This document shows, in pieces, positions 3 through 6,971 of a DNA stretch of 64,000 nucleotides; position 1 is the stretch's first letter, and each line of letters begins with the position of its first letter. The notes beneath the pieces are model-generated. The model saw nothing but the letters and a program-made list of their open reading frames with translations. It searched no databases and had not been told where the DNA came from. The stretch is from Candidatus Kapaibacterium thiocyanatum. Lineage in GTDB: Bacteria > Bacteroidota > Ignavibacteria > Kapaibacteriales > Kapaibacteriaceae. The stretch is from assembly GCA_001899175.1 (NCBI GenBank), contig MKVH01000025.1, positions 1 through 64,000 of the forward strand. Direction: 5' to 3'. Made by a program: the position numbers and the translations under genes.

Positions 3-3000
3 GGCAAGAACTACGGCGAATACCTGCCGTCGAATCACTCGGCCAAGAGCTGGACCATCGACGGCAATCCCTTCAGCGGTACGGCTACGCGCCTCGTCAC
101 CACGCAGATGGGTGGCATGAACAACGTGACCGGTGTCACGGACATTTCGTCGAATACGGTAACGACGACGAACAAGCAATACGGCCTGAACACCATCACC
201 TTCCAGGACAACACGACGCAGAAAGGATGGGATACGCTGGCCGCTGCCAGCGCCCTCGTCGCCTCGCCGTCCGGCTTCTACGGTATCTGCTACAAGAGCA
301 AGTCCATCGACGAGAACGGCAATCATACCGCTATGTATGTCGATGGCCTTGGGCGTACGCGCTACGTCGTCGTCGACAGCGGTGGCCTCGACCTCGTCAC
401 GACGTATACCTACAACACGAAGAACCAGCTCGTGACGGTGACGAATCCTGCGGGACAGGATATCGACTACGACTATGACCGGTGGGGGAACGTCACGTCG
501 GTGACGCATCCCGACTTCGGCGCCGTACGTGCCAAGTACAATAACGTGGGTCAGGTGCGCTTCACGCAGAAGCGGACGCAGTCGCCGGGCGATGGCCATG
601 CCGGCGATGCCGTGACGTTCTATCAGTACGACGACCTGGGTCGTATGACGGCCATCGGCGAGGCCGTCTTCGAGAGTTCCAGCGCCTTCAATGGGCTCGA
701 CTCGTCGACCATCAACCTCACCGGGACGGGTAGTACCTATGTCCGGCCTACCGTCAATCCGTCGCTGTTCTCCGGGTCGGTGGCATATCCGACACCTCCC
801 AGCATCTATCCGCTTCTGCCTGTCCTCTCGCCGAACAACAGGGCAGGTGCGGCCGGTTGCCTGTTCGAATGGGGTAGTGTACGTCCCGGTTACGAAGCGC
901 TCTTTCCCTTCAACGCCCTCGAGCGGACGATCATCAAGCCCATCGACATCTGTGTCTTCAACGATGCGGCTCCCTACGGTCCCGTCTCGGCGGCGAACGA
1001 CTTCGAGGACTTCACCGACAACCCGCACAACGGACGTCAGGCCATCTCCTACGACCAGATGCCGCTCGGCGGTAGCGGCTCCTTCTGGCGCAGCTTCCCG
1101 AGTCCGACGCAATGGAACGCGCTCTCGAAGACCGGTACGGTTCGCAACCAGGCAGGTCGTGTGGCCGCCATCGCCTATCGCGACCACCCGTACGAGGCGT
1201 ATCGCTACCGCGTCTACAGCTACGACGAACGCGGCCGCGTGGAATGCGTGATCAAGCTCACGCCGGCTCTCGGCTTCGATGCCGTCTACTACTCGTACAA
1301 CTCGTCGGACCAGATCACCAGCATCCACGTCGTCGACGCCCTCCGCCAGTATGCCACATGGTACGGTTACGACGACAACGGTCGTGTGGCCGAGATGACG
1401 TCGCACGTGACGCCCGCCTACGATGGCGTCAACCCGCCCAATAACGGTATGGGGTTCACGACGGGAAGCATCGTCAAGCCCGCACTCATCACCCGTCCCG
1501 TCGGCGCGCCGCGCGTGACGTATACGTATGATGCCATAGGCAACCTTACGGGCAAGGTCTATCACGATGCCGACGACCTGAACCGCGAACTCAATACCAC
1601 ATACCTGTACGATCCCCGCTGGCGCCTGCAGCAGCAGGACCACTCGTGGGACCTCGACCCCGTCAGCTCGAGCGACATCTACACGCGCGACAACGGCGGC
1701 CGCATCACGCAGCGCAGCAGCACGCTGCTCGACGGCGACGTCTACGACCACACGTACACGTACGACAACGCCGGGCGGCTCGTCACGGCCGACGTGGACC
1801 ACAACCTCACGCCGTGGAAGAGCGAGACGTACGACGTGAACGAGATCGCCCGCCGCACGCAGACGACGAAGACGGGTGTGGTGGCAGGGTATACCTATGC
1901 GCCGCTCCCGGTATCGGCGACCAATGCGCCGACGGACATCGCTCCGAGCGTCAACGGCGAGATTCTGACGGACGACCAGACGTACAACCGCGACGGCGCC
2001 CTGAACTATCGCTATCTGCGTCCGCAGGGCACGGCGCCTACCGTGCCGTTCTCCAAGGAATGGTTCCACTACGGCTACAATGATCGTCTCGTCAAGATGC
2101 AGACACAGGCGACGGATCAGCCGACGGGCCCCACGTGCGGGCTGATGCCGCCGTTCTCCATCTCCTTCTCGCTCTCGGGCAAGATGGAGTGGCAGTATTC
2201 GTACTCGCCGTCGGGCGAGCGCGAGATCAAGCGTCTCGTCCTCTCGCCCACATCGGACTCGACCTGCGGTCAGGTCTTCCCATGGACATACTACCTTCTG
2301 GGTACCGGCGACGAACAGCAGGTCGTCTATCACGGCCGTCAGATCAGTCGTGGCGACTGCGACGGAGGCCCCGGCCGCCGCGTCTTCTTCTATCCCGTCG
2401 AGTTCCGTTCCTACGGTGTGGACGGTCTGAACATCGTCTGGGAACGCGATGCCAACGGCAATATGGTGTCGCGCTTCGTGGGTACGGACATCCAGGGCTC
2501 GGAGCGGTACGTGGTAGGGAAGAACGCGTACCAGAAGGTGCGTGACTACCTTCCGTTCGGTGTCGATGTGGCTGTGGCGAATGACCAGAGAAGAGGATAT
2601 CTCGGCAAGGAAACGGACTACGAGACGGCGCCGCAGTACAACGTCATCCTGAACACGCCGCTGTACCACGAACGCCTCATGGACATGAGTGCGCGGAAGT
2701 ACAGCAAGACGCAAGGGGGCTTCACCAGTGTGGATGCGCTGTGGGGCATGGCAGTGGGAACGTCGCCGTACATCTACAGTCATCATGATCCCATCAACTT
2801 CGCGGATCCGAGTGGCTATGCCGGAACACCGGTCGGCGGTGGCGGCACTGGTACTGGCGGTACTGGTGGCACACCGGGTGGCAAGACCGGTGGAGCATGG
2901 CCGTACAACCCTTTCATGCTGGATGCCTTCAGCAGTGATGAGAGCAGGTCGATGACATCCAGGGAGATGATCGATCGCCTGGGCTGGAACGCGACACTGG

Positions 3001-3524
3001 TGGCTCAGCAGCCACAGTATGCGGCGAAGTCGAAATCGAAGTCCGAGAAGAAGGACCCGAAGGCAATATCGTCGGCGAATACTTCGCAGGAAGCGTCAGC
3101 AGGTACCATTGTCATTGGATCTGGTGTAGCGACGTATCTTGTGACAGCGGTTAGTACGGCATTGGTAGTGAGTGGCGGAATTCTAATAATATTCGCTGCG
3201 ATCGTGCCCGGCGACACGAGGATCGACGATGCTGAGGAAGCCGGTGCGGAGTCCGAACCGGACAGTGAAGCGCAACCGTTGAGTCTGCAGGAGCAGGCTG
3301 CCAAGCTTAGGGAAAAACATGGCAAAGCAGAAGTCGAGTTGTCGAATGGATGGCTGCACCTGACTGGTAGTGCTCATGGGAATGTCAGAACACCGCACGT
3401 ACATGATTTGGAATGGAACACTAATCCTCAAACTGGTGTTGCTCATCCCAAAAAGATCGATCACCCACGTCCCGCGACGCAGAAAGACCTAGATGAGGCT
3501 GCAAAAATTATCAACGGAAAGTAG
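3..3524 (+). CDS. RHS-repeat polymorphic toxin, 5' truncated by window edge
   Basis: The frame is open from base 3, so the true start lies upstream; 1173 residues are visible. The body carries YD/RHS-type repeats (for example YDNAGRLV, YDDNGRVAEM, YGYNDRLVKM), a family that forms a hollow shell around a toxic C-terminal tip. An RHS-associated core is visible at residues ~865-939, from YLGKETDYETAP to HDPINFADPSGYAG. After it comes a Gly/Thr-rich linker, a hydrophobic stretch at ~1033-1070 that could act in membrane passage, and a tip of about 100 residues with a His-rich HGNVRTPHVHD motif (~1125-1135). The tip belongs to no family I can name; nuclease activity would be only a guess. Its 3' end is AT-richer than the body, as expected for exchangeable tips. 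The stop is three bases before the first immunity gene. Confidence 0.9.
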   Translation, partial: GKNYGEYLPSNHSAKSWTIDGNPFSGTATRLVTTQMGGMNNVTGVTDISSNTVTTTNKQYGLNTITFQDNTTQKGWDTLAAASALVASPSGFYGICYKSKSIDENGNHTAMYVDGLGRTRYVVVDSGGLDLVTTYTYNTKNQLVTVTNPAGQDIDYDYDRWGNVTSVTHPDFGAVRAKYNNVGQVRFTQKRTQSPGDGHAGDAVTFYQYDDLGRMTAIGEAVFESSSAFNGLDSSTINLTGTGSTYVRPTVNPSLFSGSVAYPTPPSIYPLLPVLSPNNRAGAAGCLFEWGSVRPGYEALFPFNALERTIIKPIDICVFNDAAPYGPVSAANDFEDFTDNPHNGRQAISYDQMPLGGSGSFWRSFPSPTQWNALSKTGTVRNQAGRVAAIAYRDHPYEAYRYRVYSYDERGRVECVIKLTPALGFDAVYYSYNSSDQITSIHVVDALRQYATWYGYDDNGRVAEMTSHVTPAYDGVNPPNNGMGFTTGSIVKPALITRPVGAPRVTYTYDAIGNLTGKVYHDADDLNRELNTTYLYDPRWRLQQQDHSWDLDPVSSSDIYTRDNGGRITQRSSTLLDGDVYDHTYTYDNAGRLVTADVDHNLTPWKSETYDVNEIARRTQTTKTGVVAGYTYAPLPVSATNAPTDIAPSVNGEILTDDQTYNRDGALNYRYLRPQGTAPTVPFSKEWFHYGYNDRLVKMQTQATDQPTGPTCGLMPPFSISFSLSGKMEWQYSYSPSGEREIKRLVLSPTSDSTCGQVFPWTYYLLGTGDEQQVVYHGRQISRGDCDGGPGRRVFFYPVEFRSYGVDGLNIVWERDANGNMVSRFVGTDIQGSERYVVGKNAYQKVRDYLPFGVDVAVANDQRRGYLGKETDYETAPQYNVILNTPLYHERLMDMSARKYSKTQGGFTSVDALWGMAVGTSPYIYSHHDPINFADPSGYAGTPVGGGGTGTGGTGGTPGGKTGGAWPYNPFMLDAFSSDESRSMTSREMIDRLGWNATLVAQQPQYAAKSKSKSEKKDPKAISSANTSQEASAGTIVIGSGVATYLVTAVSTALVVSGGILIIFAAIVPGDTRIDDAEEAGAESEPDSEAQPLSLQEQAAKLREKHGKAEVELSNGWLHLTGSAHGNVRTPHVHDLEWNTNPQTGVAHPKKIDHPRPATQKDLDEAAKIINGK

Positions 3525-4262: not shown

Positions 4263-4436
4263 GTGTTCCAATATGTTGATGGAGATTTCCCACTCCAGCG
4301 ACTGGATGAGAGGCGGTTGATCGACGGTATTACATTGTGGACGATCGTGAACCTACCCTTGTCGCAGGTGCCTCGTCCTGGTTCAGCAACGCAGAAAGAT
4401 CTGGACGAAGCCGCGAAAATCATCAACGGAAAATAA
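4263..4436 (+). pseudogene. Relic of a displaced RHS toxin tip, copy 1
   Basis: A 57-codon open stretch with no start codon ends in PRPGSATQKDLDEAAKIINGK (two adjacent parts: PRPGS, then ATQKDLDEAAKIINGK) and a stop. The final 16 residues match the C-terminus of the intact RHS protein (ATQKDLDEAAKIINGK), while the upstream part (VFQYVDGDF...LDERRLIDG) does not. The stop lies exactly three bases before the second immunity gene, reproducing the junction of the intact toxin and its immunity gene. This is best read as the 3' end of a former toxin tip left behind with its immunity gene when a new tip was inserted upstream. Confidence 0.75.
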
Positions 4437-4439
4437 TCC

Positions 4440-5159
4440 ATGAACGACATGAATGCAGTGACACGATTGCTTGAGCAGTTGGCGCAATATCTGATCGACA
4501 AAATAGAAGCTGTGCCAACTGGAGACCTCATTGTACTAACGATCAACTCACTTGATAATCCCGGTTGGGGAGTCTCGTCGGTACTCATGCATGAGACTGT
4601 TGCCGATAGGAAATCTGTCGGAACGATTGATGATAACAGCTTGGATTGGTGGACCTGCTACGAACAAGTGTATGCTGAGAGCCCAAAAAGGTTAATGAAG
4701 ACTGATGCTCTAGTGACGGCATATGGTGGTCCACTATACCTTGCTACTATTGCTGAGAAGGTCTATGCACGAGTGGTGAATGGGGTCTTGAACGAGAATG
4801 TCGCCATCTTGAATGATACTATTATCGATAATCTCTGCGCATGGCTGTCAGTGCAATGTGATGGTGAGTGGGAGCATTCTGAAGCGATTAGAATTGTACT
4901 GACAAGTGCCGGTCAATGGAAGTTTCAGGCGACGAATGTCTCGACACACTTGTTGCAGAAAGAAATGGAGTCGGAAGTACGACCAATGTTTCCAATGCTT
5001 GGTACGGAGAAAGCATGGATGCGTGACCCGGTGATGATCGATCAGTGCTGGTATCATGACTCGACAGATATTGGTGGTCTTGCCGATATGTTCGAAACGT
5101 TCCTGAACAATTCGGAGCTCGATCCGGCTGGTTTGCCGAACAATGTTCCAACGCCCTGA
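4440..5159 (+). CDS. Immunity-type protein (Imm53-like), copy 2
   Basis: This 239-residue paralog of the gene at 3528-4247 has the same layout: an N-terminal half with SLDNPGW, DWWTC and AYGGP, and a C-terminal half with QCDGEWEHSE, GQWKFQATNVSTHL and RDPVMIDQCWYHDSTDIGGL. It starts three bases after a relic of a toxin C-terminus, so it is an orphan immunity gene whose toxin has been lost. Such genes are known in RHS and CDI loci to protect against siblings that still carry the older tip. The last ~45 residues are nearly identical to the other two copies while the N-terminal halves differ much more, which suggests recombination or selection acting on the 3' ends. Base composition is AT-rich for the window. 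Confidence 0.75.
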   Translation: MNDMNAVTRLLEQLAQYLIDKIEAVPTGDLIVLTINSLDNPGWGVSSVLMHETVADRKSVGTIDDNSLDWWTCYEQVYAESPKRLMKTDALVTAYGGPLYLATIAEKVYARVVNGVLNENVAILNDTIIDNLCAWLSVQCDGEWEHSEAIRIVLTSAGQWKFQATNVSTHLLQKEMESEVRPMFPMLGTEKAWMRDPVMIDQCWYHDSTDIGGLADMFETFLNNSELDPAGLPNNVPTP

Positions 5160-5190: not shown

Positions 5191-5282
5191 GGTAGCGTTC
5201 CAACATGTTGATGGAACCGTGGTAGCGTTCCAATATGTTGATGGAACCATCAAGGGTAGCGTTCCAATATGTTGATGGAACC
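5191..5282 (+). repeat. Three tandem copies of a 28-bp hairpin repeat
   Basis: Copies lie at 5191-5218, 5221-5248 and 5255-5282. Each begins GGTAGC and contains GTTCCA and TGGAAC, which are reverse complements separated by nine bases, so the unit can fold into a 6-bp stem with a 9-base loop. The first two are 2 bases apart and the next is 6 bases further. In one frame the unit reads VAFQYVDGT, so an origin as a decayed coding fragment is also possible. Further copies are at 5479-5506 and 6634-6661, and a degenerate one begins near 4263. Confidence 0.85.
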
Positions 5283-5434
5283 GTCAAGCATTCGAAGAAT
5301 GGCTTGATAGTGGGATTCTTGCTCGCGTTCGTATCATGATATGAACGATCATTCCCTTTGGTAACGAAGAAGCGAACCGTTCGTTGGCCTGCTACAGCCG
5401 GGCATTTGGACCTCGTGTTCCAATGTGTGGATGA
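5255..5434 (+). repeat. 180-bp direct duplication, copy A
   Basis: This segment starts with a hairpin repeat and ends at GTGTGGATGA. It recurs almost unchanged at 5479-5659, with only a handful of substitutions and a one-base indel visible by eye. The two copies are separated by 44 bases that contain the RHS-core fragment, which shows a recent local duplication. Confidence 0.85.
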
Positions 5435-5446
5435 TGTTCTGAAGTC

Positions 5447-5479
5447 CTCGGCAAGGAGTCGGACTACGAGACGGCGCCG
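5447..5479 (+). pseudogene. 33-bp fragment of RHS core coding sequence
   Basis: These bases match positions 2601-2633 inside the intact RHS core at 31 of 33 positions and would encode LGKESDYETAP. The fragment is flanked directly by the end of repeat copy A and the start of repeat copy B. It shows that the noncoding patchwork derives in part from RHS genes and that breakpoints fall inside the core just upstream of the variable tip. Confidence 0.8.
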
Positions 5480-5659
5480 GTAGCGTTCCAATATGTTGAT
5501 GGAACCGTCAAGCACTCGAGGAATGGCTTGATAGTGGGATTCTTGCTCGCGTTCGTTGTCATGATATGAACGATCATTCCCTTCGGTAACGAAGAAGCGA
5601 ACCGTTCGTTGGCCTGCTACAGCCGGGCATTTGGACCTCGTGTTCCAATGTGTGGATGA
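5479..5659 (+). repeat. 180-bp direct duplication, copy B
   Basis: Second copy of the segment at 5255-5434, again led by a hairpin repeat (5479-5506). Past its end the sequence continues into a region resembling the toxin-tip relic upstream of immunity gene 2. Confidence 0.85.
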
Positions 5660-5754
5660 ACTTTCTGTGCCAGTATGGGATGAGAGGCGTTTAGCGACGG
5701 TACTACACTATGACATGATCATGAACGGTGCCCTTGTGACAGGTGTCTCGTCTC

Positions 5755-5811
5755 GGCTCAGCAGCACAGATAGATCTGGACGAAGCCGCGAAAATCATCA
5801 ACGGAAAGTAG
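5755..5811 (+). pseudogene. Relic of a displaced RHS toxin C-terminus, copy 2
   Basis: Eighteen codons plus a stop read GSAAQIDLDEAAKIINGK, matching the C-terminus of the intact RHS protein. The stop is three bases before the third immunity gene, the same spacing as at the two upstream junctions. The preceding sequence (VFQCVDELSVPVWDERRL, from about 5640) is homologous to the relic at 4263-4436 but lies in another frame, so it has suffered an indel. This is a decayed toxin end, not an expressed gene. Confidence 0.75.
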
Positions 5812-5814
5812 ATT

Positions 5815-6537
5815 ATGAATGACACAAATGCAGTGATACAACCGCTCGAGAAGCTAGCGCAATTTCTAATTGACAATATTGAAACTACGTTGGAGGGCGA
5901 GTCTATCGTTCTGAGAATCAGTACTCTCGACAATCCCGGTTGGGAGGTCTCTTCGATACTTCCGAATGAAGCTGCAAAGAATGATGTCGAGAGAAAATCC
6001 GTCGGAGCAATTGATGAAGAGAGTGAGGACTGGTGGACTTGCTTCGAGCAAAAATATGCTGAGAGTGCAAAGGTGCTAATGAAGACCGATGTCGTTGTGA
6101 CGGCATATGGAGGCCCATTGTACCTTCCTGTTATTGCCGAAAAAGTATACTCACGAGTTATGCGTGGAATCCTGAATGAGAACCCGATCATCCTGAATGA
6201 TGGGCTGATCGATAGAATCAGTACATGGCGGCAAGTTCAATGTGATGGTGAATGGGAACATTTGGATGGAATCAGAATTGCTCTAGCAAGTACCGGCCAG
6301 TGGAAGTTTCAGGCGACGAATGTCTCGACGCATTTGATGCGGAAGGACCTGGAATGGGAGAAACGACCAAGGTTTCCGATACTCGGTACGAAGAAGGTAT
6401 GGATGCGCGACCCGGTCATGATCGATCAATGCTGGTACCATGATTCGACAGAAATCGGAGGATTGGCCAGTATGCTCGAAACGTTCCTGAACAATTCGGA
6501 GCTCGATCCGGCAGGTTTGCCGACGGGTAGGTGCTAA
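5815..6537 (+). CDS. Immunity-type protein (Imm53-like), copy 3
   Basis: This 240-residue paralog of the two upstream immunity genes shows the same two-half layout, with STLDNPGW, DWWTC and AYGGP in the N-terminal half and QCDGEWEH, GQWKFQATNVSTHL and RDPVMIDQCWYHDST in the C-terminal half. It follows a decayed toxin C-terminus by three bases and is probably an orphan immunity gene kept after loss of its toxin. The reading frame is intact and the spacing of motifs is conserved, so it is still under selection or very recently formed. There is no signal peptide or membrane segment. Role is inferred from context. Confidence 0.75.
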   Translation: MNDTNAVIQPLEKLAQFLIDNIETTLEGESIVLRISTLDNPGWEVSSILPNEAAKNDVERKSVGAIDEESEDWWTCFEQKYAESAKVLMKTDVVVTAYGGPLYLPVIAEKVYSRVMRGILNENPIILNDGLIDRISTWRQVQCDGEWEHLDGIRIALASTGQWKFQATNVSTHLMRKDLEWEKRPRFPILGTKKVWMRDPVMIDQCWYHDSTEIGGLASMLETFLNNSELDPAGLPTGRC

Positions 6538-6971
6538 TGCGCAGATCGCGCGAGATCGTGCCATCATTAGGGGTGTAGTTGGGGTCTCCTTGCTGCTCTT
6601 TCTCTGGTTCGCATTCCATACACATGAACTCCGGGTAGCGTTCCAGTATGTTGATGGAACCATCAAATGGACCTCATGTCCCGGTATGTGGATGGATCAT
6701 TCGCGTCAACGACTGGATGAGAATCGACTACGTTGTGGATTCATCCCGTTGACGAAGAAGAAGCGGAGTGCTCCGTAGCATCGGTATTCCATCTCCCGAT
6801 ACGAAGATGGATTGGAAGCTCCGACAGGAACGCGGACGTCGCCAACGCTATACCGCCGTCCAAACCGCGAACAAATGCTACGCTTGGGTGACTCCCCGTA
6901 CCCGCCGGTCTCGAACCTGTGCCTCAATCGGGAATTATGTGGCTATCCTCCGCTCATATCCCGCATCCTCC
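6538..6971 (+). other. Gene-free tail of the toxin-immunity array
   Basis: No supportable gene is seen. The stretch contains one hairpin repeat (6634-6661), followed by sequence similar to the decayed toxin relics: ACTGGATGAGA at ~6713, and a segment near 6739 resembling part of the 180-bp duplication. From roughly 6780 on, no relation to the array is apparent. Short open frames here have no start context or recognisable product. Confidence 0.55.
6634..6661 (+). repeat. Hairpin repeat, isolated copy downstream of immunity gene 3
   Basis: Same unit as at 5191-5282 (GGTAGC, then GTTCCA and TGGAAC around a nine-base spacer) with one change in the loop. It is the last recognisable member of the family in the window. 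Confidence 0.8.

Follow-up and report, generated by a model that had tools for sequence, protein, structure and literature searches.

The window, the whole stretch of 64,000 nucleotides analysed here, is the first 64 kb of the 234-kb contig C25 in the 3.27-Mb, 28-contig genome of Candidatus Kapaibacterium thiocyanatum. It begins inside an RHS gene, beyond which lie three immunity genes and the remains of other cassettes. The features are as follows:

3–3524, + strand: RHS open reading frame of 1173 amino acids, open at the contig start
3–2816, + strand: RHS/YD-repeat shell and core (Pfam RHS_repeat, NCBIfam Rhs_assc_core), running off the start of C25
2811–3023, + strand: glycine-rich linker and conserved post-core stretch, common to another RHS gene of the genome
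3102–3212, + strand: hydrophobic segment, residues about 1034–1070, read from the sequence
3279–3521, + strand: short-form Ntox24 toxin domain, residues about 1093–1173, assigned by PF15529, a family profile and the alignment with L068
3375–3407, + strand: HGNVRTPHVHD motif, residues 1125–1135, in which H1125, P1131 and H1132 are invariant in the family
3522–3524, + strand: RHS stop codon
3528–4247, + strand: immunity gene 1, encoding a tandem double Imm53 protein of 239 amino acids (two stretches matching PF15580, E 3.2e-13)
4371–4436, + strand: remnant of a lost toxin, C-terminal tail only (...ATQKDLDEAAKIINGK-stop)
4440–5159, + strand: immunity gene 2, double Imm53, 65% identical to gene 1
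5447–5479, + strand: 33-bp fragment of RHS core matching 2601–2633, relic of a deleted RHS copy
5740–5811, + strand: second remnant toxin tail (...AAQIDLDEAAKIINGK-stop)
5815–6537, + strand: immunity gene 3, double Imm53, 65% identical to gene 1

The preliminary description of this DNA had reported an RHS frame ending in a hydrophobic stretch and a tip with the HGNVRTPHVHD motif, together with an adjacent downstream gene, and both were confirmed, the downstream gene starting 3 bases past the RHS stop. The tip that it had placed from position 3220 onward is real, but the homologous domain starts only near residue 1093 (nucleotide 3279). Judging from its sequence, the hydrophobic segment ahead of this domain probably has a role in translocation. 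The linker stretch and core share 76% identity over 137 amino acids with the other RHS gene, and the tips diverge beyond that point. The core has a GC content of 62%, the tip 52% and the immunity genes 47–48%, a drop typical of exchanged cassettes.

Tip exchange is also apparent from the rest of the genome, which contains 19 Rhs core matches. The core of the window, in part with its linker, is common to copies on contigs C6, C21 and C22 with different tips; the C21 core shows 86% DNA identity over positions 614–2811, yet its tip differs. The same core carries unrelated tips, as in polymorphic toxin systems. Several contigs, C21 and C25 among them, stop within RHS cores, as would be expected of an assembly broken at repeats. 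As regards the other tips themselves, two on C6 (L056, 4726–5646 and 3123–4193) and one on C22 (L057, 4350–5156), all on window-type cores, were without a Pfam match at E 0.1; long hydrophobic stretches close the C6 tip at 3123, which might be a membrane toxin. The RHS tip on C21 (L053/L054), whose core is closely related to that of the window, matched DUF4258 weakly (E about 0.003, below the cut-off). On C6, the gene immediately behind an RHS gene, at the position of an immunity gene, encodes a DUF1493 protein (L056, 4288–4692; E 4.8e-7).

By sequence, the tip of the window is homologous to Ntox24, a catalogued polymorphic-toxin domain. The earlier statement that it matches no toxin family does not hold, as Pfam detects PF15529 (Ntox24; older Pfam name Toxin_49) at 30.5 bits (E 4.5e-7, profile positions 51–84 of 91) against a gathering cut-off of 24 bits, and a whole-genome profile search agrees. 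A profile of the family that excluded the window sequence, assembled from relatives on Nostoc and Streptomyces plasmids, genome contigs, one viral contig and actinobacterial genomes, scored the tip at 41.7 bits, with 10.8 bits for the best of about 10,000 composition-matched shuffles. The family alignment was needed for this, since the window tip alone as query over viral and genome contigs retrieved no relative; PADLOC and PHROGs had no match for the tip either. All 13 collected relatives match Ntox24.

In the survey of Zhang et al. (2012, PMC3482391), Ntox24 is an all-beta polymorphic-toxin domain with conserved Y, H and H residues, partnered by Imm50 or Imm53 and carried by RHS and MuF proteins among others. 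Its two conserved histidines correspond to H1125 and H1132, which are present in 13/13 members. In window numbering, H1125, P1131, H1132, P1142 and G1145 are invariant across the 13 members, and R1156 is kept in 12. The window tip is like the catalogued family in its match to the C-terminal half, in the invariant H, PH, NPxTG and RP elements, and in having an RHS carrier and an Imm53 partner. The His-rich character that had been highlighted in the preliminary description turned out to be mostly incidental: seven histidines occur from residue 1106 onward, and H1106, H1119, H1134, H1148 and H1154 show no family conservation.

The tip departs from the family ahead of the motif. Canonical members have there a segment of roughly GxVTxYxxYDxxGxxxKRVD, which is absent from the window tip. 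The Y-containing hairpin is missing (the Tyr is found in 11 of 12 relatives), and W1117 and H1119 stand where 12/12 others have R and D. As the Tyr listed for the family is absent, we refer to the tip as a short Ntox24-related variant and not as a canonical member. A second short form was found at locus L068, in a genome (G1178) of the same order as the window genome. Its tip is laid out as SVSEQAAAL...GK...HYDLVGPPHRGVSTPHV...NVNPNTGELF...VRPMEQQDIRVVRNYL, scores above the Ntox24 cut-off on its own, and is 37% identical to the window tip over 75 residues (E 5e-8), the two having in common SxxEQAAxL...GK...H...TPHV...NxNPxTG...RP. It sits downstream of a HINT-like end and is followed by a small gene. 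Because L068 shows the same layout, the shortness of the window tip is, by this comparison, not private decay.

Structure predictions were made for both forms. The AlphaFold model of a canonical relative (L021) is made up of beta strands apart from a single helix of 3 residues (pLDDT 87). The model of the window tip has intermediate confidence (pLDDT 69.5 with six sequences; input of 102 residues, window 3216–3521) and shows a helix, five strands of at least 3 residues and a C-terminal helix. The first helix, at residues 24–35 of the 102-residue piece, coincides with the SLQEQAAKLREKH stretch, partly common to L068, and is predicted where the canonical hairpin, R and D would stand. Whereas canonical Ntox24 is modelled as all-beta and has an N-terminal Tyr hairpin and an R/D pair, the window tip is shorter, with predicted helices at its N- and C-terminus.

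The profile search against toxin-domain libraries suggested at the outset found Ntox24, as described above, while fold comparison gave no convincing solved-structure match for either model. Foldseek against the PDB returned nothing below E 0.2 for the canonical or window-tip model, and the sequence search of solved structures returned only noise (E 0.77 and 0.79). The best VIA Z-scores, 4.5 (canonical) and 2.9 (window tip), lie in the uninformative range of the tool, and PT7 of Bacillus cereus (8owu, Z 3.8, rmsd 6.5) was dropped for the same reason. The canonical model did match minor capsid proteins predicted for phages (Foldseek E 1.7e-5), a predicted similarity that agrees with the listing of MuF proteins among the Ntox24 carriers. 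A colicin E3-like fold has been proposed for Ntox24 by Zhang et al. (PMC3482391); the colicin E3 family is absent from the Pfam matches of the 13 members, though Ntox24 may nonetheless have such a fold.

The three genes downstream encode Imm53 proteins with PF15580 scores of 49.7, 43.4 and 49.2 bits for genes 1, 2 and 3, all above the Pfam cut-off of 25 bits. Imm53 is a listed partner of Ntox24, as here, where each protein of the 239-residue type has two domains and three genes stand in a row. Zhang et al. (2012, PMC3482391) use the terms polyimmunity loci and polyimmunity proteins for such tandem arrays and multi-domain immunity proteins, and Imm53 is not named among the prominent homogeneous polyimmunity families given there. 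The paralogues are under purifying selection (dN/dS 0.16–0.21, dS about 1–1.4), so that all three genes have probably stayed functional. Imm53 was also present in three other genomes sampled from the phylum, and the stretches read there had no recognisable Ntox24 tip adjoining it.

Genes 2 and 3 are preceded by just the last 17–20 codons of a toxin (...DLDEAAKIINGK-stop). The likely history is one of three successive toxin-immunity cassettes, from two of which the toxins were lost. The first Imm53 copy has GGAAAG ahead of its ATG, and the toxin tail may have been retained because the immunity gene has its ribosome-binding site there. Tip exchange and orphan immunity genes are described for Serratia RHS proteins (PMC10539506); swapped tips on a shared core and orphan immunity genes are common to both systems, whereas the relics here are reduced to the last 17–20 toxin codons. 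The shared core with swapped tips, the tandem Imm53 genes and the toxin relics fit the known behaviour of polymorphic toxins and polyimmunity.

The intergenic regions of the array also contain a 27-bp repeat, GTAGCGTTCCAATATGTTGATGGAACC, in five copies with at most 1 mismatch, between and after the immunity cassettes (window positions 5192–5282, 5480–5506 and 6635–6661) and absent from the rest of the genome. Three of these copies touch a 181-bp duplication (5255–5434 and 5479–5659, 97%). The possibility that the inter-cassette repeats of about 30 bp are a genome-wide recombination site was discarded, as across the genome they occur only here.

The neighbours of canonical Ntox24 genes had no Pfam family at cut-off where they were scanned, so they are not recognisable Imm53 proteins. 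At six loci (L021, L022, L032, L005, L007 and L034) a canonical Ntox24 is followed by a gene of about 150–190 amino acids, and several of these neighbours share the motif W..F/L..W...L.GD....E...N...L. They are possibly an undescribed Ntox24 immunity family, as their sequences suggest. On a phage-like viral contig (L048, 2287–3161) a 174-residue Ntox24 protein has a small gene overlapping its end, which resembles these neighbours.

Taken together, the locus probably encodes an RHS protein tipped with a short-form Ntox24 domain, and the gene immediately downstream its cognate double-Imm53 immunity protein. In the proposed mechanism, the tip would enter a neighbouring bacterium by way of the RHS shell, and the domain of about 80 residues would act there as a metal-independent ribonuclease through H1125 and H1132. 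In the producer cell, Imm53 would bind to the tip and block it. Ntox24 has been predicted to be a metal-independent endoRNase, found in toxin-antitoxin pairs too (Zhang et al. 2012, PMC3482391), and a CDI survey reports PF15529 in a Pseudomonas CdiA tip; a literature search under these family names found no experiment on Ntox24 activity. The earlier suggestion of an enzyme toxin, possibly a nuclease, next to an immunity gene fits this prediction and the Imm53 partner, though not the label of an unrecognised tip. We regard toxicity of the tip as likely. The ribonuclease reading was adopted because of the family prediction and the two invariant histidines; RNA is slightly favoured as the target, and catalysis by the two histidines has about an even chance of being correct.

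The missing hairpin Tyr, R and D could mean, from the alignment, that the activity of the tip is altered or lost. The tip might accordingly be read as decayed and inactive, with a frame still open and its catalytic residues gone, in the manner of the two adjoining cassettes, which are gutted to their tails. Such decay is unlikely, as the frame is intact to its stop with the immunity gene 3 bases on, H1125, P1131, H1132, P1142, G1145 and R1156 are all kept, and the independent short relative L068 has the same layout. The short form (helix, strands and helix, lacking Y, R and D) might also represent a separate class of enzyme that has an active site and a target of its own and is paired with a double-domain Imm53 kept in a homogeneous polyimmunity array; we consider this quite unlikely. 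In our reading the tip is a variant of a known toxin kind and does not found a new class.

HNH and His-Me nucleases are frequent among RHS tips, and the clustered histidines of the motif would suit an enzyme of that type, binding a metal and possibly acting as a DNase. For this tip, such a metal-dependent nuclease is improbable: only two of the seven histidines are conserved, with no invariant acidic residue or Asn alongside, and Pfam and NCBIfam gave no match for HNH or His-Me, although that absence is no proof. That the tip is simply where the RHS protein ends, a structural domain without toxicity, is least credible, indeed barely conceivable, as nothing beyond the absence of a solved homologue speaks for it, whereas the match to a toxin family, the immunity gene and the differing tips among RHS copies with the same core all speak against it.

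With the tip taken as a short-form Ntox24 toxin, this is otherwise a largely ordinary interbacterial toxin cassette, somewhat new in its short form without Y, R and D and in its homogeneous double-Imm53 array with toxin relics. It adds a short form to Ntox24, in the literature surveyed a family without a solved structure or tested activity, and the residues that survive in that form, H1125, P1131, H1132, P1142, G1145 and R1156, are the best candidates for its active site. The three Imm53 genes and the toxin relics provide a local snapshot of immunity genes outliving their toxins.
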